DNA of 64,000 bases from Streptomyces sp. AM 2-1-1 (lineage in GTDB: Bacteria > Actinomycetota > Actinomycetes > Streptomycetales > Streptomycetaceae). The stretch lies in contig NZ_CP119147.1 of assembly GCF_029167645.1 (NCBI RefSeq), forward strand, positions 1,364,001 through 1,428,000, read 5' to 3'. The notes beneath the pieces are model-generated. The model was not told where the DNA came from. It made no database searches and worked only from the letters and a program-made list of their open reading frames with translations. Made by a program: the position numbers and the translations under genes. How positions within the stretch are numbered: position 1 is the first letter of the stretch; each line of letters opens with the position of its first letter. This document shows, piece by piece, positions 2,840-42,147 of the stretch.

Positions 2840-5800
2840 TCACGGATTCACGTCGGCGGCCATCCTGTCGGTGAGCATTCCCGAGAGGGCGGCGGTGCTT
2901 CCGTAGGTCCACAGGAGCGTCGGGGAGAGCTTCGTCCCGAACGCGTTCTCCAGCCGGTTGCGCAGTTCCAGGCTCATGAGTGAGTCCAGCCCAAGCGACT
3001 TGAAGGGGGCTTCACGGTCGATGGAGTCGGCCTTGAGCCGGAGTACCCGGCCCGCGAGTTCGCGGACCTTCTCCTCCACCAGGGCGGGGCGCGCGGACTC
3101 GGCCGCACCCCGCAGCCGGCCGAGGAACTCCTCGCCGCCGCCCGTCCCGCTGCCGCCGTCCCTGGCCAGCTCCGCGATGACGCGCCAGCTGGGCTGGGCG
3201 GCCGTCTCGGGGTAGGCGTCGAACCAGTGGCGGGCGTCCAGGGGTACGTAGCCCACGACCTGTCCGGGCCCGTCCAGGAGGTGGGTGAGGGCCTGCCACG
3301 CCTCGGCGGCGGTGAACCCGGTCATGCCGTGGTCGGCGAGGCGTTCGCCGCGGATGGCCTCGTCGGCGGCGAGGCCGATGTCGGCGAACGGGCCCCACTG
3401 GACGGCGAGGGCGGGGCGGCCGCGGCCGCGTCGGGCCCGGGCGAGCGTGTCGAGGTAGACGTTGCCCGCCGCGTAGCCGGCCTGGCCGGGGTTGCCGACG
3501 AGTCCGGCGACCGAGGAGAACATCACGAACAGGTCGAGCGGATCGTCGGCGGTCAGCTCGTCGAGATGGGTCGCGCCGTCGACCTTGGGGGCGAGGACGC
3601 GGTCGAGCCCCTCGGCGGTGAGGTTGGTCACGACGGCGTCGTCGAGCACCCCGGCCGCGTGGAACACCCCGCGCAGCGGCGGCAGTTCGGCACGGACCCG
3701 GTCGAGTACGGCGGCCAGGGCCGGGCGGTCGGCGACGTCCACCGCGAAGGTGGTGACGGTGGTGCCGCGGGCGCGGAGCGCCTCCACCCGGCGGGCCGCG
3801 TCCCGGCCCGGTTCCGACCGGCCCAGCAGCACCAGCGAACGGGCGCCGAGGTCGGCGAGGTGTTCGGCGAGGGAGAGTCCGAGGGCGCCGAGGCCGCCGG
3901 TGAGCAGGTAGCTGGCGTCGGGGCGCGGCTGCCCGGCGGGCAGCGGTTCGGGAGCGATGGCGGTGACGTCCCCGGGGCCGGTCAGGACCAGCTTGCCGGT
4001 GTGCTCGCCGAGGGCCATGGAGCGCAGGACGTCGGCGGCCCGGGCGAAGGGGTGGGTGGTGACGGGCAGCGGCGGCAGGGTGCCGTCGGTGACCCGCTGC
4101 CACACGGCGTCCAGCAGCCGGGCGAACCGGGCGGGCCGGCGGGTGATGAGGCCCGCCACGTCGACGGCGGAGAAGCTGATGCCCTTGGCGAAGGTGCGCA
4201 GGCTGATGGTGCGGGAGGCGTAGATGTCGCGCTTGCCGACCTCGACGAACCGGCCGTCCTCGGCGAGCGCCGCGAGGCCCAGGTCGATGGCGGCCCCCGA
4301 GAGCGAGTTGAGGACGACGTCGACGCCCCGGCCCCCGGTGATCCGGTCGACGTCCTCGGCCCAGGACAGGTCCCGGGAGTTCAGGACGTGGTCGATGCCG
4401 AGGGCGCGCAGCGACGCGCGCTTCTCCTCGGTGCCCGCGGTGGCGATGACGGTGGCGCCCAGCGCGTGGGCGACGCCGACGGCGGCGAGGCCGAGGCCGC
4501 CCGCGGCGGAGTGGATGAGGACGCTCTCGCCCTCCTCCAGGCCCGCCTGTTCGGCCAGCGCGTACCAGGCCGTCGCGGTGACCAGCGGGAGGGCGGCCGC
4601 CTCGCTGTCGGACAGCGTGGCGGGGATCGGCCTGGTGTGGGCGGCGGGGACGGTGAGGTGGGAGGCGACGGCGCCGAAGCCGCAGGCGACAACCCGGTCG
4701 CCGACGGCGACGCCGTGGACGTCCGGGCCCACCGCGCTGACGATGCCCGCGCACTCGGCGCCGATGAGGTCGGCGCCGGCGGAGTCGTCGGGGTAGGTGC
4801 CCATGGACTTCATCACGTCGATGAAGTTGAGCGCGGCGGCGGTGACTTCGACCTCCACCTGCCCGGCGGCCGGTGCGGTCCTGGGCCGGGGCCGGAACTC
4901 CAGTCCCTCCCAGAGCCCGCTGCCGTCGGGCCGCAGCCGGAACGGCTGGGCCGGTCCGTCCCACGGCGCCTTCGGCTCGTCGCCGCTCTCCTCGCCGCGC
5001 ACGATACGGCCGGTGTGGAGGCCGTCGGCCCGCAGCACGCTCTGGTCCTCGCCGTCGGCGCCACCGGCGATCAGCCGCCGGGCGGTGCGGTCGGCCCAGC
5101 CGTCCTCGTCGGTGCGGATGTCGAGGAGTGCGGAGGCGAGTTCGGGGTGCTCGCGGCGCAGGACGCGGCCGAACCCCCAGTACAGGGCGGAGCCCGGGTC
5201 GGGGATCTCGTCGGCGCGGACGGCCTGGGCGCCGTCGGTGACGACGACGGTCCTGGGCGGTACGGGCAGGCCGGTGGCTTTCCTGACGGCTGCGGCGAGG
5301 CCGAGCAGTCCGGTGCGCTGGGCGGCGAGGCCGAGTCCGGCGCCGGGGGCGAGGAAGACCAGTGCGTCGCCGGCCGGGGTGCCGGTGCCGTCGGCGGGCA
5401 GGACGGTCGCGGTGGCGCCGAGCCGGATCAGGGCGGCGGCGAGCGCCTCGCCGGTGCCGGCGGCGTCGTGGATCGCCCAGTGGCCGGGCAGCGCCGGGGC
5501 GGCTGCGTCCTGGCCGTTCTCGCCGTTCTCGCCGTTCTGGCCGTCCGGGACCCGCCGGAACTCGAAGCGGTGCAGCCGGGCCGGGTCGACGGCTCGGGCG
5601 GAGGTGCCGTCGATGGTCTGGAAGGCGAGGCCCGCCATCCGCAGGACGGGGCGCCGCTCGTCGTCGTAGAGGACCAGGTCGAAGGTGCCGTCGGCCGAGC
5701 GGACCGCGTGCGAGTGCACCGAGGTGAGGGTGGCCCCGGCGTCCAGGCGGTAGTCGACGCGGTCGACGGCGGTCGGTACGACGGTGGCGTCGCCGGGCAG

Positions 5801-8800
5801 CAGGGCCAGGGTGACCTGGAGCGCCGCGTCCCAGAGCGCCGGGTGCAGTTCGCCGGGGCGCACCCCGGCGGTGCATCCGGCCGGCAGCTCGATCGTGCCG
5901 AGCGCCTCGTCACCCTGGATCCGCAGGGTGCGCAGCCCTTGGAAGGCCGGTCCGTAGCGCAGTCCCCGGGCGGCGCAGGAGGCGTAGAACGCCTCGGCGT
6001 CCAGGGTGTCCGCACCGTCGAGCCCGGCCGGGTAGGGCGGGATCACGCCGGGGGCGGGGGCGGCGACGCGGGCGGTGGCGTGGCGGCTCCAGCCGTCCGC
6101 GCCCGCGGGCAGGGAGTTGAGGCTGAAGCTCGCCGACGCGGTGCCGTCCTCGCGCCACAGGGCGCCGAGGCGGACGGGCTCGTCGGTCAGGGTGAGGTCG
6201 CTGAGGAACCGTACGGCGTGCAGGGAACCGGGGTTCTCGCCGGTGCGGGTGCGGGCGGCGGACACCGCGAGCGCCAGCATCGCGGCACCGGGCAGCACGA
6301 CGGCGTCGTACACCTGGTGGTCGCGGAGCCAGGGCAGGTCGTGCAGGGCCAGTTCGGTGCGGCCCTCGTGGAGGTCGCCCTCGGTGGTGGCCGGGGTGAA
6401 GTCGAAGGCGAGGCCGCCGGGTCCCGCGGTCCGGCGGGCCGCGTCGGGCAGCCAGTACCGGGAGCGCTGCCAGGGGTAGGGGGGGACGGGGGCGCCGGGG
6501 CGGGCCGGGAGCGCGCCGAACGGGGCCAGCCCGCTCGTCCAGGCGCGGGCGAGCGAGAGGGTGAAGTCGGTGAGCGCGCCGTGGTGGCGCCGCAGGCTGG
6601 TCAGGACCGCGGCCCGGTCGTCGGCGAGCTGCTCGACGGCGGGGGCGAGGACGGGGTGCGGGCTGATCTCGACGACGTGGGTGACCCCGGCGTCGAGCAG
6701 GGCGCCCATCGCGTCGGCGAACATCACCGGGCGGCGCAGGTTCTCGGCCCAGTAGCGCGGGTCCAGCTCCGTGCCGCCGACCTCCCGGCCCAGCACGGTC
6801 GACATGAGCGGGACGGAGCCCTCGCGCGGGGTGATCGGGGCGAGGACCTCGATGAGTTCGTCGGTCAGCTCGTCCATGTGGTGGCTGTGCGAGGCGTAGT
6901 CGACGTTGACCAGCCGGCAGTACGTGCCGTCCGCTTCGAGGAGCTCCTTGAGGACGAGCACGGAGTCGCCGTCGCCGGACAGCACGCTGGAGGAGGGGCC
7001 GTTGTTGACGGCGAGCGAGACGGTGTCCTCGAAGCCGTCGAGCGCCTTGCGGGCGTCCTCGGGGCCGAGGTCGACGGCGAGCATCCGGCCGCGTCCGGCG
7101 GTCCGCTTGGCGAGCGCGCTGCGCAGCGCGATGACGCGGGCGCCGTCCTCGTAGCTGAGGTGGCCCGCGATCGTCGCGGCGGTGACCTCGCCCTGGCTGT
7201 GCCCGATGACGACGTCGGGCTCGACACCCGCGTCGCGCCACAGGGCGGCGATGCCGAGGGACATGGCCCACAGGGTGGGCTGGACGACCTCGACGCGCTC
7301 CAGCCAGGCATCGCCGGCCTCGCCGGAGACGATCGGGAGCAGTTCCCAGTCGGTGTGCGGGGCCAGTGCCTCGGCGCAGCGCCGGACGGTGGCGGCGAAG
7401 AGCGGCGACTCGGCGTACAGCCGGCGGCCCATGCCGGCCCACTGGGAGCCCTGTCCCGGCAGGACGAACGCCACCCGGTCGCGTGTCCGGGCCCGGCCGG
7501 TGGTGACGCCGGGTATCTCCGCGGCGGGATCCTCGGTGTACTGACGCAGCCGGTCGGCGAGTTCCCCGACGGAGCCGGCGGTGACGGCGGCGCGGGCCGG
7601 GAAGTGGTCGCGTTCGCGGCCCAGCGTGCCGGCGAGGCGTACGACGCCGGCGGCGTCGGCGGGGAGCGCGGCCAGCAGGTCGGCGGCGCGCTGTGCGAGG
7701 GCCGCGTCCGAGTGCGCGGTGAGCGGCAGCAGCAGGGCGGAGGTCCCGGTGACGGCGGGCGGCTCGTGTGCGGGGGGTGTGCGCAGGATGACGTGGGCGT
7801 TGGTGCCGCCCCAGCCGAAGGAGTTGACGCCCGCGTAGAGGACCTCGTCGGCGGGGAGTTCGGTCCGCCGCGTCGCGACGTCGAGGTTCAGGTCGGCGAA
7901 GGGGATCTTGGGGTTGAGCTCCTCGGCGTGGAGGCTGGCCGGGATGGTGCGGTTGCGCAGGGTCAGGACGGTCTTGACGAGGCCGGCGAGCCCGGCCGCC
8001 GCCTCCAGGTGGCCGATGTTCGTCTTCGCGGAACCGATGAGCAGCGGGCCGGCGCCGGGGCTGCGGCGGGTGCCGAGCGCGGTGCCGAGCGCCTCGGCCT
8101 CGATCGGGTCGCCGCGCAGCGTGCCGGTGCCGTGCGCCTCGACGTAGGCGAGCTTGTCCAGGGGTACGCCGGCCCGCTCGTAGACGCCGGTGAGCAGGGC
8201 GGTCTGGGCCTCGACGTTGGGAGAGACGATGGAGTGGCCGCCGCCGTCGTTGTTGACGGCGGAGGCGACGATGACGCCGTGCACGCGGTCGCCGTCGGCG
8301 AGCGCCCTGTCGAGCCGCTTGAGGTAGACGCCGATGGCGCCCTCACCGCGGACGAAGCCGTTGGCCCGGGCGGAGAACGCCCGGCAGTGCCCGTCCGGGG
8401 AGAGGCCGCCGAAGTGGGTCAGTCCGACGGACATGTCGGGGACCAGGATGAGGTTGACGCCGCCGACGAAGGCGCCGTCGAGGTCCCCGGCGCGCAGGGC
8501 GCCGGCCGCGAGGTCGAGGGCGACGAGGCCGGAGGAGCAGCCGGTCTCCACGACGAGGCTCGGCCCGCGCAGTCCGAAGAAGTACGAGAGCCGGGCGGCG
8601 ACGATGTCCAGCGCCCCGCCGACGGCGGTGTGCTGGGTGGTGGGGACGCCGCGCTCCTTGCGGGAGAGCATGTAGTCCTGCCACAGCGCGCCGATGTACA
8701 CGCCGGTGCGGCTGTCGCGTACGGCGGCGGCGGGGATCCCGGCGTGTTCCAGGGTCTGCCAGCCGATCTCGAGCATCAGCCGCTGTTGCGGGTCGATGTC

Positions 8801-9076
8801 CTCGGCCTCACGGGGCGAGATGCCGAAGAAGCCGGGGTCGAACTGGTCGATCCCGTCGAGCATTCCGGCGACGCCGGGGATCTTCTTCACCGGGTCCAGC
8901 TGTGCCGAGGCGTCCCAGCGCTCCGGCGGCACCGGGCGCACGCTCTCCTCGCCGTCGGCGAGGAGCTGCCAGTAGCGCTCGATGTCGGGGGCGCCGGGGA
9001 AACGGCCCGCCATGCCGACCACGGCGATGAGGTCTCCGGTGTCGTCACCGGATACGTACGCGGGCTGTTCAGTCAT
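2840..9076 (-). CDS. Type I polyketide synthase, one fully reducing module KS-AT-DH-ER-KR-ACP
   Basis: A 2078-residue single-module PKS. KS about 14-430, with Cys180 in the unusual context ETGCSSG instead of DTACSSS, His315 (HGTGT) and His356 (GHLEA). AT about 533-840, with GHSQG Ser627, RVEVVQ at 594-599 and YASHS at 727-731, the pair that predicts methylmalonyl-CoA. DH about 905-1155, with His920 in [10 protein letters not shown] (Gly of the usual motif replaced by Asp), YGPAF and Asp1083 (DAALQ). ER about 1385-1700, with [13 protein letters not shown] about 1720-1900, with [11 protein letters not shown] at 1811-1813 (B-type), a catalytic Ser in FSSVAG and Tyr1868. ACP, with Ser2032 in LGLDSL. 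No loading module or N-terminal docking helix is seen. Start ATG 9076 follows GAGGTGA and overlaps the monooxygenase stop by 8 bp. It should add one fully reduced methylated unit, or act iteratively; the sequence cannot decide which. Confidence 0.96.
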
Positions 9077-10391
9077 GGCTCACCTCGTGGCGGATCGGGT
9101 CGGCTGCGTCCTCGGTGCGGGGTCCGCCGAAGCGGGCGAGGGCGAGATCGACCTCGTCGATGGGGTGCTGGGCGTTGATGACCTTGTTGAAGAGGCGGTA
9201 CTTGCCCGGCAGGGCGTTCAGCACCCGGAAGCGCGCCCGGCGCAGCAGGACCCTGCGCGGGTCGCCGGCGGCGAGCTGGGCTTCCTGCATCCGCTGGAAG
9301 CGGGTGACGAAGGTCTTGTGGGTACGGCGCTTCTCGACGAACGCGGTGAGTTCGGCGGCGGTCACCACGCGGTCCGGTGCGCCGGCGGCGAGCGCCTCGG
9401 CGAGGACCGGCACGATCATGATGGCGTCCTGCATGGCGAGGTTGACGCCCTGGCCGAGGATGGGGGTCGCGGTGTGCGAGGCGTCCCCGATGAGCAGCAG
9501 CCCGTCGCGGGCCCACTGCTCCATCTCCGCGGTGAAGATCTCCAGGAAGCTGGTGTCGTCCCAGGACCGCAGGTGCTCGTCGACGAGGGGGGCGAGCTGC
9601 GCGGAGATGGACATGATGCCCCGCTTGAAGGCCTCGAAGCCGGCCGCGCGGAGCTCTCCGAGGCCGCGCTTGGGCAGGTTGTGGCCGATGCGCAGCGAGT
9701 CGGGGAACGTCGGCAGGATGACCAGGTGCTTGTCCCGCTCGATGACGAGCTGCGCCTCGTCGCCCCACTCCGGGGGCCGGGGCAGTTTGAAGGAGAGGAA
9801 GTCGCGGGCCATCGGCTGGACGTCGGCGACCAGCCCGGAGGCCTTGCGGACCTTGGAGAAGCGTCCGTCGGCGCCGATCACGATCCGGGCGCGCACGGGG
9901 ACGCGTTCGCCGCGGCCCTTGGCGAGCACCGCGCCGCGTACGACGCCGTCCTCCTCGATGAGGGAGGTGAAGCTCCAGCCGGAGAGGTAGACGTGGCCCT
10001 GGAGCCCGGCGGCCTCGCGGTTGAAGATGCGGATGAGGGCGGGCTGCGGGATGTCGATGGGCAGCGGCAGGTCCTTGAACCTGCGGTAGTCGATCCGCAG
10101 GATGCGCCGCTGCTCCGCGATGGTGGTGATCGCGGTGGTCTCCAGGAAGCCGTGGTCGCGCAGGGCGGGGCCGAAGCCGAGCCGGTTGAGGGAGGTGACC
10201 GAGGGGGCCGCGATGGTCTCGCCGCGGAAGCTGCGCTCCAGGCTGGTCTGCTTCTCGACCAGGACGGTGCGGATGCCCCGGCGGGCCAGCAGACAGGCCA
10301 GCAGGGATCCGGCGGGACCGCCGCCGACGATCAGGACATCGGTTTCGGCCGGGACGTCGGGGCGCGTCGGGTCGTTCGTGCTGTCGGTCAT
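9069..10391 (-). CDS. FAD-dependent monooxygenase/oxidoreductase (PHBH fold)
   Basis: A 440-residue group A flavoprotein. The N-terminal FAD dinucleotide motif GGGPAG is at about 20-25, the GADGRFS (DG) motif is mid-protein, and the GDASHTATPILGQG FAD-ribityl motif is near 290-305. This fold usually hydroxylates or epoxidises aromatic or polyketide substrates using NAD(P)H and O2; some relatives halogenate. There is no WxWxIP halogenase signature. ATG 10391 is chosen because GGGAG lies six bases upstream and the ATG overlaps the preceding stop as ATGA; an in-frame ATG at 10403 is less well placed. It lies between the tetronate cassette and the PKS in one coupled operon, so it probably oxidises the nascent or released polyketide. 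Confidence 0.9.
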   Translation of the reverse strand: MTDSTNDPTRPDVPAETDVLIVGGGPAGSLLACLLARRGIRTVLVEKQTSLERSFRGETIAAPSVTSLNRLGFGPALRDHGFLETTAITTIAEQRRILRIDYRRFKDLPLPIDIPQPALIRIFNREAAGLQGHVYLSGWSFTSLIEEDGVVRGAVLAKGRGERVPVRARIVIGADGRFSKVRKASGLVADVQPMARDFLSFKLPRPPEWGDEAQLVIERDKHLVILPTFPDSLRIGHNLPKRGLGELRAAGFEAFKRGIMSISAQLAPLVDEHLRSWDDTSFLEIFTAEMEQWARDGLLLIGDASHTATPILGQGVNLAMQDAIMIVPVLAEALAAGAPDRVVTAAELTAFVEKRRTHKTFVTRFQRMQEAQLAAGDPRRVLLRRARFRVLNALPGKYRLFNKVINAQHPIDEVDLALARFGGPRTEDAADPIRHEVSHD

Positions 10392-11140
10392 GCCAACTCC
10401 CATTTCTCCAGGCGGTCCTTGACCCCGGCGAGGATCTCGGCGGCCATCGCGCCGTCCAGCACGCGGTGGTCGAAGACGAGCGAAAGGGTGAACAGGGGTG
10501 CGACGACCACGCGGCCGTCCCGCACCAGGGGGCCGTCGGCGATGTGGCCCACGCCCAGGCCGAGCGTCCCGGCGATCAGCGGCAAGATCGTGCCGACGCG
10601 TTCGTGGCCGATGGAGGTCACGGCGAAGGTGCCCTGGAGGGCGGCCCGGCGCTGCGGGTCGCGCATCATGACCCGGTAGACCAGCCGCATCAGCGGCAGC
10701 GGCAGCCGCTGGAGCTTGCGGATCGCGGCGAACGGGCCCAGGTCGTCGACCTCGGCCCGCTTGTACACGTCGATCGCCTCCTGGACGGCCCGTACGTCGG
10801 CCGTCTCGACGTGCTCGACGGTGCCGGAGACCACACAGCGCTGGCCGTCGACGGTCTTGTCGAAGAGGACCTTGGCGTGGACGGCGGGAGAGACGGTGAG
10901 GCGAGGGCTGCGGCCGGTCAGGACGGCCCGCGCGTCGGGGTAGCCGGCCAGCGTGTCGGCGACGGCCTTCACCACGTAGCTGACGTAGCTGACCTCTCCG
11001 GACGTACGGGCCCGTGCTCCGCGCATGGCCGTGGCGTCGACCTCCGCCATCAGGTAGACGTGCGAGGTGCGGCGCGCGTCCTCCAGGAAGATGTACGTCT
11101 GCTTGCGGGCGGTGGGCAGCGGTGAGGTCACGGCGCTCAT
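10388..11140 (-). CDS. 2-oxoacid dehydrogenase E2-type acyltransferase (AbyA4/Agg4-like)
   Basis: A 250-residue protein consisting only of the catalytic domain of the lipoamide acyltransferase family. It ends in the diagnostic FDHRVLDG motif (His225, Asp229). There is no lipoyl domain and no E1/E3-binding domain, so it is not part of a dehydrogenase complex. Stand-alone E2-type proteins of this kind acetylate the hydroxymethyl group of the tetronate ring in agglomerin- and abyssomicin-type pathways. Its position directly after FkbH and ACP matches that cassette. Start ATG 11140 overlaps the ACP stop as ATGA. Assignment to the family is firm; the acetyl donor role is inferred from context. Confidence 0.9.
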   Translation of the reverse strand: MSAVTSPLPTARKQTYIFLEDARRTSHVYLMAEVDATAMRGARARTSGEVSYVSYVVKAVADTLAGYPDARAVLTGRSPRLTVSPAVHAKVLFDKTVDGQRCVVSGTVEHVETADVRAVQEAIDVYKRAEVDDLGPFAAIRKLQRLPLPLMRLVYRVMMRDPQRRAALQGTFAVTSIGHERVGTILPLIAGTLGLGVGHIADGPLVRDGRVVVAPLFTLSLVFDHRVLDGAMAAEILAGVKDRLEKWELA

Positions 11141-11424
11141 GGTCGGACGCCCTGTCCGGCGCCGGCCGCGGTGTCCGCGACGAGGAGGGCGAGGTCGGCG
11201 ATCCGCTCGGCGGCGGCGAAGCGCTCGTAGTCCACCGGGGCGCCGAGGCCGCGCTCCAGGTTCACCAGCAGCCTGAGTGCGTTGACCGAGTCCCAGCCCT
11301 CGATCTCCGGCAGCGCGGTGTCGCCGCGGAGCTCGTCCTCGTCCACGTCGAGCAGTCGCGCGACGGCCTCCGTCACGGTCTGCTCGGCCGCGATCAGATC
11401 GTCGGGGGTTTCCTCAAGGGGCAT
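11137..11424 (-). CDS. Acyl carrier protein (glyceryl carrier of the tetronate cassette)
   Basis: A 95-residue carrier protein with phosphopantetheine Ser46 in EGWDSVN and the usual four-helix pattern. The GWDS context is typical of discrete carriers paired with FkbH-like enzymes, which load a glyceryl unit from 1,3-bisphosphoglycerate onto the carrier. It overlaps the end of the FkbH gene by 11 bp, with ribosome site GAAGGGAAG inside FkbH, so the two are translationally coupled. It is followed by the E2-type acyltransferase with an ATGA overlap. It probably holds glyceryl-S-ACP for the KAS III-like enzyme. Confidence 0.92.
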   Translation of the reverse strand: MPLEETPDDLIAAEQTVTEAVARLLDVDEDELRGDTALPEIEGWDSVNALRLLVNLERGLGAPVDYERFAAAERIADLALLVADTAAGAGQGVRP

Positions 11425-14819: not shown

Positions 14820-15680
14820 CTAGAGCCGGGGTGGACCCGGCCGGGCGAGGCGGGCGCCTTCGATGGCGGCGAGGATCTGCCGGTTGAGGGCGGTGCCGGC
14901 CCGGGTGTCGGGCCGGGTGGAGGCACGGTCGTCCTGGAGCGCGACGGCCGCGGTGTGCCCCCCGGGTACGTCGCAGGTCGCGAAGCGCCAGCTGGTGTCC
15001 TCCACCAGCCTGCCGTCGGCCCGCTCCAGCCGGGCCGTGCCGTCGGCGAGCCGGAAGCCGAACTGGGTGAACGGGAAGCGCAGACCCTGCCCGAGCGCTT
15101 TGCTGTACGCCTCCTTCAGCGTCCACAGCCGCAGCAGCAGGGCGTTGCGCTCCTCGGGCGGGGTACGGGAGAGCCGCAGCCGCTCCGGTTCGGTGCACAT
15201 GAAGAGTTCGACGTCCTGTCCGCTGAGCCGCCGCTCGGAGGGTTCGGCGTCGATGCCGATCACTCCGAGGGAGGTGATGCCGCAGAGGAGGAGGTCGGCG
15301 GTGTGGCTGAGGCTCACGTCGATCTGGTCGTAACCCCGCAGGTGGACGCGGCCGTTGAGGCCGTAGCGCAGTTCCAGGGAGTACGGCTCCGTGCCGAGGG
15401 CGACGGCCGCGGTGTGCCGGATCAGCATCCGGGTCGCCATGAACCGTTCGCGCAACTGGTCGTTGCCGAGCCTGCTGTAGCGCGGCCAGTCCCGCCCGAG
15501 CAGCTCCTGACGGCGCGGCTCGGGCGGCAGCTGGGTGCGCCACTCCGCCAGTGAGGCGTGGACCAGGCCGACGCCGGAGGAGTCCAGATCGCGCAGCAGC
15601 TGCGACCAGGGTCCGGCGGGGCCGTGGACCAGGCCGGGGACGGGAGGGAAGCCGTCCGCCGGGTGGCGCGTGAGGGTCAT
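14820..15680 (-). CDS. 4'-phosphopantetheinyl transferase, Sfp type
   Basis: A 286-residue Sfp/AcpT-family enzyme that moves phosphopantetheine from CoA to the conserved serine of carrier proteins. The two magnesium/catalytic motifs are present: GIDAEPSERR at about 142-151 and WTLKEAYSKALG at about 186-197. ATG 15680 overlaps the stop of the acyl-CoA dehydrogenase-like gene (ATGA); longer open sequence upstream lies inside that gene. Its presence in the cluster supplies activation of the two discrete ACPs and the PKS ACPs. Confidence 0.92.
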   Translation of the reverse strand: MTLTRHPADGFPPVPGLVHGPAGPWSQLLRDLDSSGVGLVHASLAEWRTQLPPEPRRQELLGRDWPRYSRLGNDQLRERFMATRMLIRHTAAVALGTEPYSLELRYGLNGRVHLRGYDQIDVSLSHTADLLLCGITSLGVIGIDAEPSERRLSGQDVELFMCTEPERLRLSRTPPEERNALLLRLWTLKEAYSKALGQGLRFPFTQFGFRLADGTARLERADGRLVEDTSWRFATCDVPGGHTAAVALQDDRASTRPDTRAGTALNRQILAAIEGARLARPGPPRL

Positions 15681-17452
15681 CCCGCGAGTCCGGTGCGCAA
15701 CAGGTCCAGACTGTGGGGCACCCGGACCCGGTCGAGCACCTCGTCGCTGAGCCGCCCTTCGATCGCCCGGGGCAGTGGCGGTACGGAGGCACCGACCCGG
15801 CGCAGGAGCCGGTGGAGGGCGAGGGTGAGCCAGGTCGGGTCGGCGAGGAACTCGTCGGGGCCCGCTCCGGCGTTCAGCCAGACGCCCGTGCAGGCGGAGG
15901 CGGCGAGGACGAGGGCGTACCGCTCGCTGAGCGGGAAGCTGTGGTTGTCCAGCAGCATTCCCCCCTCGGACACGGAGAGCCGGCCGGCCTCCCGGCGGAT
16001 CTCGGCGACCTCTGCGCACAGCCCGTCGACGAGGACGGTGAGAAGGTCCGCGTAGGGCTGCCCGGTGAGTGCTTCCGGCAGCCGGGCGGCGGCGTGGCCG
16101 AGGTAGTCGAGCAGTCCGTCGCCGCCGCCGAAGGTGGCGAGCCGGTCGCCGTCCATCGCCGGCAGGGGCACCTCCAGGCGGAACAGGTCGGCGGGCGTGG
16201 CGGCCGGGGGTGCGGCGCCGGCCGCCAGGGAGGGCAGGTACGGGGCGATGACCGACTGGCAGATGGCGCTGCTGACGTGCCCGAACGTGAGGGTCGACAG
16301 ATCGCGCAACTGCTTGCGGAAGACCGCGTCGTGGCCGCTCTCCGCGTGGAAGGCGTCACCCATCACGGCCGAGAGGTCGTACAGCGCCTCGCTGACGATC
16401 TTCGGCACGATGTACTTGGTGACGGCGGTCAGCACGTCGCACCGGTCGGGCATCAGATGCACCGACCGGCCCGCCGTGAGGGAGAGGCAGTCGGCGATCA
16501 GCAGGTCGGCGAAGGTGCCGGCGAGCGCGGACCGCGCGGAGGCGTCGACGGCCGACCCGGCCAGCGCCGGTTCGCGTTCCTGCTCCGCCCGGACGGCGGC
16601 CCGCAGAGCGGTGTCGGCGAGCCCGATGATCATGGACGGGAAGGTGGCGTGCGCGGCGGGGAAGGCCCGCAGGCTCAGGGCCACCCCGTCGCCCCAGGTC
16701 CCGACGAGGGACTCGCCGGGCAGCGGGCAGTCGACGAACTCGAGTCCGGCGGCCTGGACGCTGCGCGCCCCCGTCGTACGGTGCCGGGGCAGCGCCCGCA
16801 CCCTGGCCGGAGGCACGGTCGCGGGGTCGAACATCAGGATCGAGTACTCGGCGGCACCGTCGCCGGTCGAGACGAATCCGACGATGAGTTCGGCGGTGTG
16901 CGCGTTGTTGATGGCGCTCTTGCGGCCGTTGAGCCGCAGCATTCCGTCGTCGCCCCAGGCCGCGCTGTACTCCTGGGCGTGGAACTCGCTCTCGTGCTCG
17001 AAGCGCTGGCAGGCGACCCCGACCGTGCCGCCCCGCAGGACGACGTTGGCCATCTTGGAGCGCTGGTGGGAGTCGCCGTTGAGCCAGACCATCTGCGCGC
17101 CCAGGAACGGGGTGAAGCCGTGGCTGAAGGCGAGGGCCGGGTCGCGGCGGAAGAACGGGCGCATCAGGAAGCCGAGGAGGTCGGCCCCGGCCATGCGCCC
17201 GCCCAGGTGCTCGGGTACCAGTTCGGCGGGCATGCCGAGGCTCTGGAAGCGCCGTATGCCGACGGCCGAGGAATCCCCCGACTCGTCGTTGGCCAGTACC
17301 GCCCGCAGACCCACGGGGTTGTCGTGGCTCCATGGGTCGCCGAGACCGTCTTCGATCTCGGCCACCCGGGCTCGTGCACGGGTCAGCCGGTCGGGCTGCC
17401 ACTGCGGGTCGCGGCCGGTGACGGCCGCGAGTATGTCGTTGTGTTCGAACAT
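15677..17452 (-). CDS. Acyl-CoA dehydrogenase-like flavoprotein
   Basis: A 591-residue protein related to acyl-CoA dehydrogenases/oxidases, longer than the usual 380-400 residues. The helical N-terminal part, the middle beta domain (with GRKSAINNAHTAELIV) and the FAD-binding C-terminal helices are recognisable, followed by about 200 extra residues. I could not confidently place the catalytic Glu. ATG 17452 is preferred over GTG 17458 because of GGGG spacing. It is coupled to the PPTase by ATGA. In this context it may desaturate an acyl-ACP or acyl-CoA starter or the polyketide chain; alternatively it is an acyl-binding or oxidase-like protein. The family is clear, the substrate unknown. Confidence 0.85.
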   Translation of the reverse strand: MFEHNDILAAVTGRDPQWQPDRLTRARARVAEIEDGLGDPWSHDNPVGLRAVLANDESGDSSAVGIRRFQSLGMPAELVPEHLGGRMAGADLLGFLMRPFFRRDPALAFSHGFTPFLGAQMVWLNGDSHQRSKMANVVLRGGTVGVACQRFEHESEFHAQEYSAAWGDDGMLRLNGRKSAINNAHTAELIVGFVSTGDGAAEYSILMFDPATVPPARVRALPRHRTTGARSVQAAGLEFVDCPLPGESLVGTWGDGVALSLRAFPAAHATFPSMIIGLADTALRAAVRAEQEREPALAGSAVDASARSALAGTFADLLIADCLSLTAGRSVHLMPDRCDVLTAVTKYIVPKIVSEALYDLSAVMGDAFHAESGHDAVFRKQLRDLSTLTFGHVSSAICQSVIAPYLPSLAAGAAPPAATPADLFRLEVPLPAMDGDRLATFGGGDGLLDYLGHAAARLPEALTGQPYADLLTVLVDGLCAEVAEIRREAGRLSVSEGGMLLDNHSFPLSERYALVLAASACTGVWLNAGAGPDEFLADPTWLTLALHRLLRRVGASVPPLPRAIEGRLSDEVLDRVRVPHSLDLLRTGLAG

Positions 17453-17523
17453 GGTCACCCCAAAGCATCAGAGGGGGCATCAGAGGACAATCCCCCGGAC
17501 CGTGCAGGGTGTGACTGGAGACA

Positions 17524-17563: not shown

Positions 17564-18262
17564 TCAGCGCCCCGCGCGGGTGCCCGAGGCGAGCCACCGG
17601 TGGACCGGCCGACCGGCCGGGGTGGCACCGCCCCGGCTCCGGAAGGCCCGGAACTCCGCGTCCTTCAGGGTGAGTCTGAGCAGAGCCAGGTCCTGCGGCG
17701 GGGTCAGCGGGTCGTCCACCGTGTACCCGACGCGGACCCGGGCCCGGACGTCGTAGAGCTCCTCGGGGCGGAGTTCGAGTCCGCCGAGCAGTGCGGGCAG
17801 CCGGGCCCGGCGGTCGGCGCCGACGGAGCGGGCGAGCCTGCCGGTCGTGGCGGGCGGCAGGGCGAACGGGCGGTCCGCCTCGGCGAAGAGCCGGGCCACC
17901 GGGGCGCCGACGAGGTGCACGGCGGCGATCCGGGTGTCGGTGGCGGCGGCGCCCAGCGCCAGCCTGCCGCCGAGGTCGAGGCCGATGACCTGGGTACGGG
18001 CGGTGGCGGCGGTGCGTACGTACGCGTCGACGAGCCGGCTGACGAGCCCGGCGGACCGGGCCACGTACCCGGCCGGATCGGCCGGCACCGCCGCGACGAC
18101 CGCGTGGCCGCGGCGCACGAGCCGGGCGAACAGGGGAAGGTACTCCTCGCGCCGGACGAAGGCCCCGCCGACCACGAGGACGAGGGGGCGCGGCCTGCAC
18201 TCGTCGAGCCCGCCGCTCCACCACACCGTCTCCCGCGGGCCGCCGGGCGTCCCGTGTCTCAT
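17564..18262 (-). CDS. Alpha/beta-hydrolase-fold protein (possible Agg5/AbyA5 counterpart)
   Basis: A 232-residue protein with the strand-turn pattern of alpha/beta hydrolases: PLVLVVGGAF near 26-35, and a nucleophile-elbow-like VIGLDLGGRLALG at 92-104. The elbow reads G-L-D-L-G, putting Asp96 where serine hydrolases have Ser, as in dehalogenases and epoxide hydrolases. ATG 18262 follows GAGG by six bases; open sequence further upstream has no ribosome site. In tetronate clusters a hydrolase-like enzyme eliminates acetate from the acetylated ring to form the exocyclic double bond, and this is the only hydrolase candidate beside the cassette. The role is inferred from context. Confidence 0.75.
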   Translation of the reverse strand: MRHGTPGGPRETVWWSGGLDECRPRPLVLVVGGAFVRREEYLPLFARLVRRGHAVVAAVPADPAGYVARSAGLVSRLVDAYVRTAATARTQVIGLDLGGRLALGAAATDTRIAAVHLVGAPVARLFAEADRPFALPPATTGRLARSVGADRRARLPALLGGLELRPEELYDVRARVRVGYTVDDPLTPPQDLALLRLTLKDAEFRAFRSRGGATPAGRPVHRWLASGTRAGR

Positions 18263-18554
18263 CCGTCCGCCTCGGCTCTGCGGACTTCGCGCCTCGTCAT
18301 GTCCCACTCCTTCGACGGCGCGGGTGCGGACGCACGGTGCCGGAGACAGGACGATTCTCCGCGCAGCCGCTCGGGCGTCGCTGAAGCCGGGGGCCCACCG
18401 GGTCGAGCCGGGTTCGAGCCGGGCGGGAGCACACCGCGGGAAAGTGGGTGGTCCGGGCCCTTCCGGCGGGGTCATGTGGACGGGTCACGGGGCCCGGCGC
18501 GGCCTGCCATCAGGCAGCGGGCGCTGATCCGGGCGCGCGCGGAAGGGCGTAGCG

Positions 18555-18812
18555 ATGGCCAGGTGGCGACAGGACGACGGGCCCGGCCCGGTGGGGCGGG
18601 GCGTCAGGGCCGTGTACCGGGCGCTGGTGACCTACGGGGCGTGCTGGGTCCCGATGCCGGAGGACCAGGTGGCGCGGATCGTACGGGACGCGGCCGGCCG
18701 GCCGTCCCCGGCCCTCACCGGACCGCCTTCCGGGCATCCCGAACGTCTCTGTTCGGAAAGGGAGTTCAGTGAGCTGGAGCGGCGACTGATGCGGGAGCTC
18801 GGCGTGCGGTGA
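18555..18812 (+). CDS. Small protein, DUF6059-like
   Basis: An 85-residue protein with an amphipathic N-terminal half containing YRALVTYGACWVPMP, the pattern I associate with DUF6059 proteins that sit near regulators and biosynthetic genes in Streptomyces. Function unknown. Start ATG 18555 follows GGAAGGG by eight bases. It diverges from the hydrolase gene (292-bp gap) and converges on the histidine kinase, so it is its own short transcription unit. Confidence 0.65.
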   Translation: MARWRQDDGPGPVGRGVRAVYRALVTYGACWVPMPEDQVARIVRDAAGRPSPALTGPPSGHPERLCSEREFSELERRLMRELGVR

Positions 18813-18851
18813 GCCGCACCCGGGCCGACGGGCCGGCGCCGGGCCCGGGGG

Positions 18852-20132: not shown

Positions 20133-20490
20133 CCCCGTGGCATCGGTTCACACCGAGGGTGAGCATAGCGTTGCGGAGATCGCATGAAAGGCAATATGAA
20201 CACTTCTTCGATCCGGAGGGGTGAACAGCCGGCGCGACAGGCTCTCGCCCGCCACCGCGATCCGTCGTCGCGACGACGTCCGTGCACGGAAATGCGGGAA
20301 ATGCCGGGAAGACCGGTACCCGGTCGTGTCCGTCCCCAGGCGCTCGATCCGTCCCGTCGGAACGGTGAAGAACTCACAGAGGCAGTTGTGAAGTGATCAC
20401 TTGTGGAGATATCGCTCGATTGCGTTTACTCCTGGTCAGCACCACGACAGACGGAAGTCACGAAGAACCACCGAGACCAGTGGAGTGACC
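20133..20490. promoter_or_regulatory. Divergent control region between histidine kinase and RiPP precursor
   Basis: A 358-bp gene-free stretch that must hold the promoters of the kinase (leftward) and the precursor (rightward). It is less GC-rich than its surroundings near 20160-20220 and 20380-20440. Its clearest element is the palindrome at 20391-20402. No convincing small gene was seen. Confidence 0.6.
20391..20402. promoter_or_regulatory. Palindrome AAGTGATCACTT upstream of the precursor gene
   Basis: Perfect 12-bp palindrome about 90 bases before the precursor start, flanked by direct repeats TTGTG at 20386-20390 and 20401-20405. Either could be a binding site for the response regulator (23165) or the SARP (23976). 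Position and symmetry are seen; binding is inferred. Confidence 0.35.
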
Positions 20491-20814
20491 ATGATCCAGT
20501 CCATGTTCCCCAGCCTTGAGTCCACGTCGGTGTTTTCCGCCCCGGAGCACGAAATGAAGTTCGCCGAGCTGATGATGCGCGCCCTGCTCGACCCGTCGAC
20601 GGCCGACCTGTACTCGGCCCGCCCCGAGGACGTCCTCGGTGAGTTCGGCATCTCCCTCGCCGAGGGCGTGAGTGCCCCCGCCCTTCCCGTCGCCACCGGA
20701 CAGCACACCGTCCGCGAGGAGTTCTCCGGTCTCGGACCGGCCGGCGCCGTCCTGCTGACGCTCTGCATCAACACCGACCCCACCGGCGCCGAACTGGCCA
20801 GAGTCGGCTGCTGA
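20491..20814 (+). CDS. RiPP precursor peptide with nitrile-hydratase-like leader
   Basis: A 107-residue protein. Residues about 22-62 (FAELMMRALLDP ... VLGEFGISLAEGV) follow the NHLP leader pattern: a helix with Leu-x-Asp-Pro, then a short Gly-x-x-Leu-x-Glu-Gly segment. After a spacer, the C-terminal part from about residue 79 is small and hydrophobic, with Cys92, a C-terminal Cys107, Ser79 and Thr90/95/98 as possible cyclisation sites. There is no GG motif; cleavage might be near LGPAG (81-85). ATG 20491 follows GGAG. The cyclodehydratase starts 26 bp downstream on the same strand with no terminator between. The precursor role is inferred from that neighbour and the leader. Confidence 0.85.
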   Translation: MIQSMFPSLESTSVFSAPEHEMKFAELMMRALLDPSTADLYSARPEDVLGEFGISLAEGVSAPALPVATGQHTVREEFSGLGPAGAVLLTLCINTDPTGAELARVGC

Positions 20815-20840
20815 ACAGCGGATCCGGGGGGGGAGACCGC

Positions 20841-23039
20841 ATGACACGCATGGCTTTCAAGAGGCATCTGCGCGCCGAGGTGGTGCCGGGTGAAGCGACC
20901 TACGTCATCTCCGAAAGAGGCATCTGCGCCTTCGAGGACGCGGGGGTGGCCGCCGTGGCCCCCCTGTTGGACGGCACCAGGGACTTCCGGTCCCTGGTCG
21001 CCGACGCCGCGGGGCAGTGCACCCCGGTCGACGTGGCCCTGGCCATCGGCCGGCTCCACGCGGCGGACCTGCTGAGCCTCGCCCCGCAGTCGGCCGGCCA
21101 GGCCGACGCGGCGGCCGCCGCCTACTGGGAACTGGCCGGCGCACCAGGTCCGTTGGGGGCCGACACCGTGCGGATCAGGTCGGTCGGCGGCGCGGACCCG
21201 GCCGCCGCGGCCCGCGCCTGCACCGCCTCCGGACTCACGGTGGTGACGGATCACGACGGCGCGCGGGCCGACGCCACCCTGGTGGTCTGCGACTCCTACC
21301 TCGACCCGGCGCTCAGGGAGATCGAGGCGGACCAGCGCGGCCTCGGGCTCCCCTGGCTGCTGGCGAAGCCGCACGGCACGACCCCGTGGGTGGGCCCGGT
21401 GTTCCAGCCGGGCGAGGGGGCGTGCTGGCAGTGTCTGGCGCACCGGATGTCCGGGCACCGGGGCACGGAGACCCATCTGCGGCAGGCCCTGGGCCGCCCG
21501 GTGGCCCATCCGCCGGCCGAGACCCCGGCCAGCCTGCTGCTCGGCCACCAACTGGCGGCCGCGGAGTGCGTGAAGTGGCTGGCCGGCCACCGCCACCCGG
21601 GCCAGAACGGCATCCTCACCTTCGACACCTTCACCCTCTCCACCCGGCTGCACCGGCTCGACGCCCGGCCGCAGTGCCGCGGCTGCGGTGATCCGTCCCT
21701 GGTCGCCCGCCAGGTCAACAGCCCGGTGACGCTGCGCTCCCGCACCAAGTCCGACCTCACGGGCTCCGGCCACCGGGCCGTGTCCGCCGAGCAGACCCTG
21801 CACACCTACGAACACCTGATCAGCCCCTTCACCGGAGTCGTCAAGGCCGTCCAGCGCGACGCCCGGGGCCCGGCCGGGCTCAACTCCTTCCGCGCCGGCC
21901 ACAACCACGCGACCGGGGCCCGCGGGCTGACCGGCCCCGCTTCCCGGCTGCGCAGCGAGAGCGGCGGCAAGGGGATGACCGAACTCGACGCCCGGGTCAG
22001 CGCGCTGTGCGAGTCGCTGGAGCGCCACTCGGGCACCTACCAGGGCGACGAGCCGACCGAACGGGCGAGCTGGCGCCAGGTCCGGGACCGGGCCGTCCAC
22101 CCCTCCGACTGCCTGCTCTTCGACCCCCGGCAAGGTGTCGAGGCCCTCGGCGAGGACACCCCGCTCGACTGGACGCCCGTCTGGTCCCTCACCCGCCGGG
22201 AGCACCGGCTCCTGCCCACCGCGCTGCTGTACTTCGACGCGCCGGAGCAGCCGGGCCTGGGCCGCCACGTCCGGGCCGACTCCAACGGCAACGCGGGCGG
22301 GAGCAGCCTGGAGGACGCCGTCGTCCAGGGATTCCTGGAGCTGGTGGAGCGCGACGCGGTCGCGCTGTGGTGGTACAACCGCACCCGGCACGCCGCCGTC
22401 GACCTGGACGCGTTCGACGAGCCGTGGATCGGCAGGACCCGGGCGCTGCACGCCTCGCTCGGCCGCGAGGTGTGGGTCCTCGACGTGACCTCGGACTTCG
22501 GCATCCCGACGTTCGCCGCGCTCACCCGCCGTACCGACAAGCCGGCCGAGGACATCCTGTTCGGCTTCGGCGCCCACTTCGACCCCGCGATCGCCCTGTG
22601 CCGGGCGCTCGCCGAGATGAACCAGATGATGCCGGCGGTGGTGGACGCGGCGGCCGACGGCACCGGTTACGGCTGCCCCGACGAGCGCCTGCTGCACTGG
22701 TGGCGCACGGCCACCGTGTCCCGGCACCCCTATCTGCTGCCCGACTCCGACGCGCCGGCGCGGGGGCCCGCCGGCTTCGGCTACACGCCCCGCACCGATC
22801 TGCGCGACGACATCGACGCCATCACGGAGGCGGTGCGCGAGCGCGGCATGGAGTTGCTCGTCCTCGACCAGACCCGGCCCGACGTCGGTCTCCCCGTCGT
22901 CAAGGTGATCGTGCCCGGGATGCGCCACTTCTGGGCCCGGTTCGCCCCGGGACGCCTCTACGACGTACCGGTACGGCTCTCCCGGGTCGCCGCGCCGACC
23001 CCCTACGAGGAGCTCAATCCCACGCCGATGTTCCTCTGA
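20841..23039 (+). CDS. Fused E1-like/YcaO cyclodehydratase of a TOMM (azoline RiPP) pathway
   Basis: A 732-residue fusion. Residues 1-300 are the leader-binding and E1-like (ThiF/Ocin) part, with a tetracysteine zinc site: Cys195/Cys198 (ACWQCLA) and Cys279/Cys282 (CRGCG). Residues about 313-732 are YcaO, with the ATP/Mg signatures ESGGKGM (373-379), SALCESLERHSG (387-398) and, further on, NAGGSSLEDAV and ELVERDA. The protein ends in NPTPMFL, a proline-containing tail as in catalytic YcaO proteins. Such fusions use ATP to convert Cys/Ser/Thr of the bound precursor to azolines. ATG 20841 has GGGGGGAG at good spacing. No flavin dehydrogenase gene follows, so azoles would need a distant enzyme. 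Confidence 0.93.
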   Translation: MTRMAFKRHLRAEVVPGEATYVISERGICAFEDAGVAAVAPLLDGTRDFRSLVADAAGQCTPVDVALAIGRLHAADLLSLAPQSAGQADAAAAAYWELAGAPGPLGADTVRIRSVGGADPAAAARACTASGLTVVTDHDGARADATLVVCDSYLDPALREIEADQRGLGLPWLLAKPHGTTPWVGPVFQPGEGACWQCLAHRMSGHRGTETHLRQALGRPVAHPPAETPASLLLGHQLAAAECVKWLAGHRHPGQNGILTFDTFTLSTRLHRLDARPQCRGCGDPSLVARQVNSPVTLRSRTKSDLTGSGHRAVSAEQTLHTYEHLISPFTGVVKAVQRDARGPAGLNSFRAGHNHATGARGLTGPASRLRSESGGKGMTELDARVSALCESLERHSGTYQGDEPTERASWRQVRDRAVHPSDCLLFDPRQGVEALGEDTPLDWTPVWSLTRREHRLLPTALLYFDAPEQPGLGRHVRADSNGNAGGSSLEDAVVQGFLELVERDAVALWWYNRTRHAAVDLDAFDEPWIGRTRALHASLGREVWVLDVTSDFGIPTFAALTRRTDKPAEDILFGFGAHFDPAIALCRALAEMNQMMPAVVDAAADGTGYGCPDERLLHWWRTATVSRHPYLLPDSDAPARGPAGFGYTPRTDLRDDIDAITEAVRERGMELLVLDQTRPDVGLPVVKVIVPGMRHFWARFAPGRLYDVPVRLSRVAAPTPYEELNPTPMFL

Positions 23040-23164
23040 CCGCTGACGGCGCTCCGGTGACGGCACGTCGGGCGAGCGGCTCCCCCCGGTTACCGCCCGC
23101 ACGTAGAGTACGCTCCGGCATCCACCGTACGGGGGGTACGGTGGATGGAGGGGAGCGTTCGCTG

Positions 23165-23770: not shown

Positions 23771-23975
23771 CCCCGGCCCCACCGCCGCCGGCCCGCGCCC
23801 GCGCCCGCCACGAAAGTCACCCCTGACCGACCATGAATCCGTCATATGCCGGACGGGTCGGACTCACATCGCACCGGTGTCCTCCTCACTGTCACCGGGC
23901 CCGGCGGCCGTGCGACGGTCGTCCTGACGGGTCCGGACCGTGCGGAGCCCGGACACCGCCCGGGAGGAGCAACCG

Positions 23976-29268: not shown

Positions 29269-29305
29269 CATGATGTCGGCCCCCGCCACCTGCAAGGACG
29301 TACCG

Positions 29306-33336: not shown

Positions 33337-33787
33337 CGGCACCCCTCCACCCTTCGGCACGCCACTCCTCGTCGTCCTGTCCGCCCTTGCGGCTCCTCGC
33401 CCGGATCCCGCCGGGCCCGCGCGGACCGGCACCACTCCCCCGTCCGGCCCGGTCCGGCCGGAAGGCCCTCACTCTCCCGACCATGGAAACACGGATGGGG
33501 CGCGTCCGACGCGCCGGTGCCCGCTCCCGGGCCGGGACGCGTCGGGCGGAAGGACTCCCGGGGCGAACGCTTCGACCCTGGTGGGAGCTGCCCGGAGCAG
33601 GGCACGGGTGTTCCGGCCTCGCCGGACGATCTTCCGGTCGTCCGCTCCCGCATGTGGCCGGGATCTCGGCGACCCGCCCGTGCGCACCGCGCGACGGGAC
33701 CGGCACCGGTGGGCTGTCAGGAGGTCCGTCCCGCCGGGGCGGCCGGCCGCGCGGCCCCTCCCGCCGCGCCTCGCCACCCGCCGGGGC
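33337..33787. other. Gene-free stretch between VWA and MEDS-STAS genes
   Basis: 451 bp with no frame that has both a ribosome site and protein-like composition. It must contain the promoter of the MEDS operon. No clear -35/-10 pair or repeat was recognised. Confidence 0.45.
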
Positions 33788-40770: not shown

Positions 40771-40799
40771 GTTTCGGTAATGAAGCCGAAACATTTTCG
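40771..40799. promoter_or_regulatory. Operator repeats for the LacI-type regulator
   Basis: GTTTCGG (40771-40777) and CCGAAAC (40786-40792) form one inverted repeat; overlapping it, CGAAA (40787-40791), CAT, TTTCG (40795-40799) forms a second. CGAAA/TTTCG half sites are the known repeated motif of Streptomyces xylan-gene promoters. The site lies just after the predicted transcription start, so binding would block the importer operon. Confidence 0.7.
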
Positions 40800-40812
40800 A
40801 GAGGGCGAGACC

Positions 40813-42114: not shown

Positions 42115-42147
42115 CCGCGCCCCACCATCCGACTGGGAACACCTCTC

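Follow-up and report, generated by a model that had tools for sequence, protein, structure and literature searches.

What purpose does a modified peptide serve when the genes around its own encode a sensor kinase, a response regulator and a transcriptional activator? The question is raised by a 64,000-nucleotide stretch of Streptomyces sp. AM 2-1-1 (contig NZ_CP119147.1 of assembly GCF_029167645.1, positions 1,364,001 to 1,428,000 of the forward strand), hereafter the window, in which a gene for a 107-residue precursor peptide lies 26 bp before one for a 732-residue fused cyclodehydratase (Table 1). An earlier note on this DNA saw the pair as mainly a minimal natural-product locus, making an azoline-containing ribosomally synthesized and post-translationally modified peptide (RiPP). 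This was not borne out, since the kinase, the regulator and usually a Streptomyces antibiotic regulatory protein (SARP) are kept beside changing clusters. From what we observe, namely the genes, their domains and order, their conservation, an operator, and covariation between peptide core and kinase sensor among related cassettes, we propose that the locus is a portable peptide-autoinducer cassette, a signalling reading to which, as a whole, we give a probability of about 0.7.

The cyclodehydratase, which is the sole YcaO match of the 7.2-Mb genome, is encoded by an uninterrupted reading frame and scores above the cut-offs of its leader-binding domain (TIGR03882, 142.9 bits against 36.9), of the SagD type (TIGR03604, 246.8 against 219.25) and of YcaO (PF02624, 333.3 against 25.7), which places it among the C-D cyclodehydratases of thiazole/oxazole-modified microcins (TOMMs) and linear azol(in)e-containing peptides. 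Almost its entire length can be aligned to the cyanobactin enzymes LynD (E = 2e-152) and TruD (1e-147), its closest solved structures, with both Cys pairs (C195/C198 and C279/C282) and the C-terminal NPTPM kept. The coordinates, domain scores and alignment thus agree with the earlier description of a closely spaced precursor and an intact fusion. Relatives of the enzyme on seven Streptomyces plasmids are annotated solely as "TOMM precursor leader peptide-binding protein". As for the precursor, it has the Cys/Ser/Thr-containing core looked for in an adjacent TOMM substrate: a leader box, TVREEFS, at residues 73-79 is followed from residue 80 by the core GLGPAGAVLLTLCINTDPTGAELARVGC, which holds T90-L91-C92 and a C-terminal C107. 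Two other predicted proteins in the protein collection match it over its full length (84% and 69% identity) and retain an LLTLCIN or MMTLCIN core. Residues 23-67 match TIGR04351 (TOMM_nitrile_2, "putative TOMM peptide"; E = 8.6e-14) with 50.8 bits, below the curated cut-off of 65. Pfam scans confirm the kinase, response regulator and SARP genes of the window.

Conservation of the cassette was followed across genomes. A scan for the cyclodehydratase in one genome per species turned up 171 relatives; the 80 best loci were retained, and 80 of 122 further places in Streptomyces were taken in addition. The locus set, made up of these 80 further Streptomyces loci, L034-L053, the window locus and L067, L068 and L076 (added for having a kinase), numbered 104, or 100 after removal at ≥97% YcaO identity, or 97 without the three added loci. 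The 57 remaining loci of the species scan, with more distant YcaO proteins (35-47%), served as controls. Neighbouring genes were placed by tblastn searches with the proteins of the cassette, a procedure that misses kinases or SARPs of high divergence. Among the 97 loci, picked by YcaO similarity alone, a kinase lies within 5 kb in 94, a regulator in 91 and both in 91; a SARP is as close in 73, and all three occur in 69. The corresponding counts in the 57 controls are 2 for the kinase, 17 for the regulator and 0 for both the SARP and the full trio. Precursor (plausible in 86 of 100 loci), modifying enzyme, polytopic kinase and regulator are therefore kept together as in peptide-pheromone systems, and the "self-contained regulated system" suspected in the earlier note fits this recurrence. 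The neighbourhood comparison suggested there likewise shows precursor, fusion, kinase and regulator recurring, with a dehydrogenase within 5 kb in only 35 of 100 loci (immediately after YcaO in 23); a dehydrogenase and a transporter standing consistently just outside the block were not found. Relatives of the enzyme that reach E ≤ 1e-60, distant ones among them, are present in 116 of 392 sampled Streptomyces genomes, that of the window included, and in 18 of 296 genomes of a class-wide sample, 10 of these in the window's genus. Three same-clade cyclodehydratases (L199, L210 and L050) have no kinase match within 5 kb; L199 adjoins nonribosomal peptide synthetase (NRPS) matches, with operator and precursor still present.

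What could switch such a cassette on? The 358-bp gap between the kinase and precursor genes contains two GTGA-N5-TCAC units, GTGAAGAACTCAC (20365) and GTGAAGTGATCAC (20388), 23 bp apart, which with 16 of 16 fixed positions form the best tandem pair of the whole window. We scored an operator wherever two units spaced 22 or 23 bp apart matched 13 or more of the 16 fixed positions no more than 1 kb upstream of YcaO. One was present in 87 of 100 loci, against 0 of 57 other loci and 11 of 1000 dinucleotide shuffles (ten per locus); a common operator upstream of the precursor would be consistent with autoinduction. Spacings of 22, 23 and 45 bp, the last reflecting a third copy, were counted 73, 44 and 43 times, and any other spacing from 14 to 44 bp at most 18 times. 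The loci are related and these counts are not independent events; the weight rests on the spacing common to the tetronate, type II and no-SARP clades. Streptomyces bungoensis L034 has the same layout, its second half degenerate, and a perfect pair before its SARP. In this locus GATTGCGTTWACTC sits 53 nt after the first operator half, and GATTGCGTTAACTC stands 53 nt from that half, as GATTGCGTTTACTC does in the window.

The distribution of the operator bears on which protein binds it. Beyond the region upstream of YcaO, 1.89 Mb contain 14 pairs with at least 14 of 16 positions. Nine of these, in seven loci (two each in L034 and L180, one each in L076, L145, L146, L147 and L165), are placed ahead of a SARP gene not divergent from the precursor, 85-147 bp from where the SARP match begins; in L180 a dehydrogenase begins on the other side of the pairs. 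Three more have a dehydrogenase start at a distance of 111-145 bp (L167, L185 and L205), and the remaining two are found 341 bp before a regulator in L076 and, in L162, near no probe. The operator is present in 21 of 24 loci without a SARP within 5 kb and in 66 of 76 loci with one. Because it is present without a nearby SARP and recurs before a relocated one, the response regulator is most likely its binder, as judged from these positions. A strong operator upstream of the window's own SARP was considered and rejected, the best pair there reaching only 13 of 16; the copies preceding the SARP in L034 and L145-L147 are stronger. SARP-type repeats were likewise sought in the gap (18476-18852) ahead of the leftward genes, with no convincing result.

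While the cassette is kept, the neighbouring cluster changes. Leftward genes beyond the window's kinase specify an FkbH-type protein, an acyl carrier protein (ACP), an E2-like acyltransferase, a ketosynthase III-like protein, an FAD monooxygenase and a type I polyketide synthase (PKS), which we take to be the set known from tetronates, the FkbH-type protein presumably standing for tetronate-like glyceryl-ACP chemistry. Elsewhere we find type II ketosynthase (KS) pairs with a fatty acyl-AMP ligase (L035, L037, L041-L044 and others; in L043 Pfam also detects a polyketide cyclase and a monooxygenase), a modular PKS (L036), an NRPS (L076), or two DUF1702 genes each (L039, L045, L048 and L051), joined in three of these loci by UnbV (L048 by Pfam, the rest by tblastn), both presumably enediyne hallmarks. 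Within 12 kb, these labels amount to 32 type II KS, 6 FkbH, 4 enediyne-type DUF1702 and 2 modular KS, that is, 44 of 100 loci, the other 56 having no cluster label from these probes; the type II label of L047 is a partial 37% match at the stretch's end. The cluster label changes at least five times on a FastTree YcaO tree, and FkbH occurs in two separate clades, that of the window and that of L192, L204 and L213. An Opp-like peptide importer beside the enediyne-type loci, guessed from gene sizes, was rejected, since Pfam identifies in L048 an AraC regulator, two DUF1702 proteins and FG-GAP/UnbV. Because the kinase, the regulator and usually the SARP are kept while the neighbouring cluster changes, the evidence points to a signalling module controlling that cluster. 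The idea that the polyketide cluster lends the locus its missing enzymes is not supported, given the same cassette beside different cluster types.

The peptides themselves are diverse. A simple finder returned a candidate precursor in 87 of 100 loci, 86 of them plausible; the L076 pick is wrong, being the response regulator, and was excluded from the covariation test, yet is still counted among the 87 cores. Seven precursors (L050, L067, L145-L147, L171 and L222) were identified by eye, and neither finder nor eye found one in L185, L192, L200, L204, L213, L224 or L076; other automatic box assignments are partly rough (e.g., L153) and many starts uncertain. Size is highly variable, down to 38 residues in L040, and most precursors carry a leader box, LVIE[DEN][LF], of the general form [LVIF]x[IVL][ED]xx[LFY][DGS], followed by a short core. 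A [CST]-hydrophobic-[CST] motif, a heterocyclisable pair of the T-L-C kind, occurs in 64 of 87 cores, against a mean of 19 and a maximum of 31 in 500 rounds of within-core shuffling, and Cys in 76 of 87. Since short relatives such as L040 have only an LxIExxD-type box in common, the nitrile-hydratase-type (NHLP) part is, on sequence evidence, an optional leader extension, dispensable in the family. The nitrile-hydratase-type leader of the earlier note thus stands as an NHLP-like stretch in the window precursor, but not as an essential part, being absent in short relatives. Repeated cores were seen in L219 (four near-identical VTSSCNFTHGPIP units), L205, L043 and L046, the last two with two units each and a duplicated leader box.

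The kinase is a candidate receptor for these peptides. In the 23 loci examined, it is polytopic by hydropathy, with two to six strong helices per sensor by a simple score, and membrane helices joined by short loops make up the sensor part. A model of the window kinase (19 sequences; mean predicted local distance difference test score of 81) has helices at 37-62, 66-87, 89-135, 138-158 and 163-240 before the catalytic core and lacks an extracytoplasmic domain; its best structural match is the catalytic core of DesK (E = 8e-12, about 29% identity). Covariation was assessed in 74 loci, that is, the 100 minus 19 without a single kinase open reading frame (ORF) of 330-520 residues and 7 without a core, in which mean identity is 0.37 for the sensor, 0.52 for the kinase domain and 0.57 for YcaO. 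Among related cassettes, with YcaO and kinase-domain identity controlled, the core-sensor r is 0.17, 0.27, 0.55, 0.60, 0.62 and 0.54 at post hoc YcaO identity cuts of >0.55, 0.60, 0.65, 0.70, 0.75 and 0.80 (213 pairs at >0.65, 84 at >0.70), values that 0, 0, 0, 0, 0 and 12 of 499 within-cluster permutations reach; the kinase-domain r at the same cuts is 0.03, -0.08, -0.29, -0.33, -0.20 and -0.04. Taken window-wise along the protein, the signal peaks in sensor residues 31-105 and 121-195 (0.39-0.59 at the 0.65 and 0.70 cuts; lower at 91-135). L049 and L052, for example, have 92% of the kinase domain, 86% of YcaO and 70% of the sensor in common, and their cores are unrelated. We read this covariation among relatives, with caution, as receptor-ligand co-evolution. 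Two kinase matches each lie within 6 kb in L040, L045, L051, L068, L166, L168, L190, L196, L206 and L215, and four in L186; the tandem kinases of L040, L045, L051 and L068 lie in one reading frame of 671-878 residues. Where two to four kinases stand in tandem, the cell may detect more than one peptide, which suggests eavesdropping.

How far would the peptide be processed? A TIGR03605 search of the whole genome and Pfam scans of 40 window reading frames uphold the earlier observation as far as a dehydrogenase, a peptidase and a peptide exporter in the window are concerned. The genome-wide search found no stand-alone SagB dehydrogenase, a candidate hence rejected: its lone match is sub-threshold (45.3 bits against 78.4) and lies 22 kb left of the window (C1:1341541-1341915, L114) within an NRPS protein that carries AMP-binding, carrier and thioesterase domains, where it is probably an embedded thiazoline oxidase. 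Neither the window nor its five nearest relatives (L034, L145-L148) have a dehydrogenase within 5 kb. With none nearby and only the NRPS-embedded match in the genome, modification of the window product most likely ends at the azoline, barring the action of an unlinked enzyme. Azoles may be made by relatives, and the state with a dehydrogenase directly after YcaO changes at least ten times on the YcaO tree. The 40 scanned frames (small ORFs and the remaining frames lay outside the scan) include neither a peptide exporter nor a peptidase; of transporters they contain an ABC importer (40780-43913) and, further left, a Na/H exchanger (36491-37909). A relative of the C39-ABC exporter of L054 lies within 12 kb in 1 of 100 cassette loci, against 35 of 57 other loci within 5 kb; dedicated export or processing, as in a peptide-pheromone system, was thus not recognised in these searches.

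L054 itself encodes a LanM-like protein (DUF4135 + LanC), a C39 peptidase-ABC exporter, a SagB-like dehydrogenase and a LuxR-type regulator, and its YcaO-dehydrogenase-regulator order is repeated in L055-L061, L064-L066, L069, L070, L072 and L079. A LanM-like gene lies within 5 kb in 17 of the 57 controls. L054, as representative of this group, resembles a complete ordinary RiPP cluster, and from its gene content lanthipeptide and azole chemistry may be combined there.

In the mechanism that we propose, the fused cyclodehydratase would bind the precursor via the leader box and, as its enzyme family suggests, convert T90 and/or C92, perhaps also C107, to azolines, after which proteins encoded outside the cassette would remove the leader and release the peptide from the cell. 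The short hydrophobic core would be sensed, presumably by direct binding, by the adjacent multi-helix membrane kinase, which would phosphorylate the LuxR-type regulator. The phosphorylated regulator would bind the tandem operator, raising expression of precursor and enzyme in a positive feedback, and would also raise that of the SARP, whose putative target, the adjacent tetronate-like polyketide operon, would be turned on. We also think it reasonably probable, on a wider scale, that actinobacteria have widespread YcaO-made azol(in)e peptide hormones with strain-specific cores and co-evolved membrane receptors, a portable switch adopted by polyketide, enediyne and nonribosomal peptide clusters.

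Several points weigh against autoinduction. The operator threshold is missed in 13 of 100 loci, at least one of the three regulators is missing within 5 kb in 28 of 97, and Cys is absent from 11 of 87 cores. Exporter, protease and importer are not linked to the cassette, and polytopic HisKA_3 kinases need not sense peptides, DesK sensing membrane state. Over all 2701 pairs, the core-sensor partial r given YcaO and kinase is only 0.07 (7 of 199 permutations) and the kinase-domain link is no weaker, with r = 0.10 (1 of 199), for which reason we rejected the all-pairs covariation as a sensor-specific signal. The identity thresholds were chosen once this result was known, and relatives are not independent. 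Kinase window 211-255 also correlates (0.34 and 0.39 at the two cuts), and so do certain YcaO windows, with values of 0.36-0.49 at the 0.65 cut and no higher than 0.40 at the 0.70 cut. Finally, we did not find the cassette described in the open PMC literature (subscription papers were outside its scope), including the available text of PMC4603692, PMC2887384 and PMC5318452.

The RiPP might itself act as an antibiotic or some other effector whose own production is all that the kinase, regulator and SARP control, in a nisin-like manner, the polyketide neighbour being present by biosynthetic clustering. TOMM products are mostly antimicrobial, the related group represented by L054 looks like an ordinary RiPP cluster, 17 of the 57 controls have a LanM-like gene nearby, and nisin-like autoinduction would equally produce core-sensor covariation. 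We nevertheless consider this unlikely, given a single modifying enzyme, tiny cores, frequent association with a SARP and with several classes of PKS and NRPS, and a cassette in which we recognise neither exporter nor immunity gene. Very unlikely, in our view, is a role of the modified peptide in polyketide assembly, as a building block or as a carrier, yielding a hybrid with accessory enzymes common to both. Hybrid lipopeptide RiPPs such as goadvionin do exist, and the physical linkage, together with the acyltransferase and acyl-CoA-dehydrogenase-like enzyme of the window cluster, would suit one; the same cassette stands beside unrelated chemistries, though, the core is highly variable within one type II PKS gene arrangement, and gene clustering showed no condensing enzyme common to the loci.

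A different doubt concerns the tandem GTGA repeats, which could be SARP sites, that is, direct repeats two helical turns apart, rather than sites of the response regulator. SARPs bind spaced direct repeats near -35, and these repeats do stand before SARP-linked promoters. Their presence in most loci without a SARP within 5 kb (a more distant SARP being possible) and the fact that each unit is itself an inverted repeat, as expected of a dimeric LuxR-type regulator, make this doubtful to us; it touches one step and could hold alongside autoinduction. Hardly credible is the view of the locus as what decay or chance has left of a TOMM cluster. The missing dehydrogenase, protease and exporter would fit decay, whereas the intact enzyme with its metal and C-terminal motifs, the core motif kept in both full-length precursor relatives, the retained operator and the frequency of YcaO relatives in Streptomyces do not.

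How does a peptide-autoinducer cassette compare with known systems? Agr, Com and NisK/R of nisin are peptide-pheromone two-component systems. The cassette is like them in its gene-encoded, presumably modified short peptide, its adjacent multi-helix kinase and regulator, its repeated operator upstream of the precursor and the covariation of core and sensor among relatives; it is unlike them in having a YcaO cyclodehydratase as modifier, a HisKA_3/DesK-type kinase with a LuxR-type regulator, a presumed output via SARP and no linked exporter. The likeness of the window kinase to the DesK-DesR thermosensor is in the catalytic core, the matched rows excluding the membrane part, and it differs in its linkage to a RiPP and in its output. 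Cyanobactin clusters carry PatA/PatG-type macrocyclising proteases, in contrast to the 40 scanned window frames, without a peptidase match. Goadsporin is an azole RiPP of Streptomyces that induces secondary metabolism and has a larger dedicated cluster, for which we know of no kinase-regulator-SARP cassette. According to the available part of PMC5303826, it has six azoles and two dehydroalanines. NHLP-TOMM clusters are described in the available parts of PMC2887384 and PMC4603692. With these TOMMs (TIGR04351, TIGR03882, TIGR03604), the window locus has in common a precursor whose leader is NHLP-like and, right behind it, a fused leader-binding/YcaO enzyme; it differs in a precursor below the TIGR04351 cut-off and in lacking a dehydrogenase, protease and exporter, and the cassette differs in the dispensable NHLP part and in its association, next to other clusters, with kinase, regulator and SARP. 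In the main text of PMC4603692, as available, the terms histidine kinase, SARP, polyketide and PKS have no match.

Each part of the cassette is thus of a known kind. The combination, a two-component system in control of other clusters with a YcaO-modified peptide as its probable ligand, is to our knowledge found nowhere else. Should the peptide prove to be the inducer, its addition, or expression of the precursor and enzyme genes, would offer a general means of activating silent antibiotic clusters. Streptomyces would then have, beside its small-molecule hormones, the butyrolactones, a hormone system based on gene-encoded peptides. The core-sensor covariation yields predicted signal-receptor pairs which, together with the operator, make the inducer idea directly testable.

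Table 1. Cassette and leftward neighbouring features, in window coordinates
Feature	Position	Strand	Basis
Sensor histidine kinase, 426 aa, DesK-like kinase core, N-terminal membrane helices	18852..20132	-	Pfam and structure model
Operator half 1, GTGAAGAACTCAC, GTGA-N5-TCAC inverted repeat	20365..20377		
Operator half 2, GTGAAGTGATCAC, 23 bp past half 1	20388..20400		
GATTGCGTTTACTC, candidate promoter element, 53 nt from operator half 1	20418..20431	+	sequence reading
Precursor peptide, 107 aa, ATG start	20491..20814	+	
Fused cyclodehydratase (leader-binding/E1-like + YcaO), 732 aa	20841..23039	+	
Perfect inverted repeat, 12 bp with 5-nt loop, between cyclodehydratase and response regulator	23119..23147		
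Response regulator, REC + LuxR/GerE, 201 aa	23165..23770	+	
Weaker operator-like repeat array upstream of SARP	23833..23889 (23833, 23855, 23877; 22-bp steps)		
SARP activator, Trans_reg_C + BTAD, 268 aa	23940..24746	+	
303-aa protein without Pfam match; family in 9/100 loci	17564..18475	-	
Acyl-CoA-dehydrogenase-like protein, 593 aa, weak match; relatives within 12 kb in 38/100 loci	15677..17458	-	
Phosphopantetheinyl-transferase-like stretch, 44% to L043 protein	14853..15623	-	
Ketosynthase III-like protein, 352 aa	13333..14391	-	
FkbH-type HAD protein, 657 aa	11414..13387	-	TIGR01686, 286.2 bits
Acyl carrier protein	11137..11424	-	
2-oxoacid-dehydrogenase E2-like acyltransferase	10388..11140	-	
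FAD monooxygenase	9069..10403	-	
Type I PKS module KS-AT-DH-ER-KR-ACP	2840..9076	-	

Beyond the type I PKS module, a second KS...KR protein extends past the left end of the window. The perfect inverted repeat after the cyclodehydratase gene is a candidate terminator, attenuator or operator. To the right of the cassette, a second pair of LuxR regulator and PAS histidine kinase is encoded at 29270-31062, its regulator being 36% identical to that of the cassette, and at 31535-33435 two adjacent MEDS-domain genes, one with HATPase and the other with STAS, form a possible switch of the anti-sigma-factor type.

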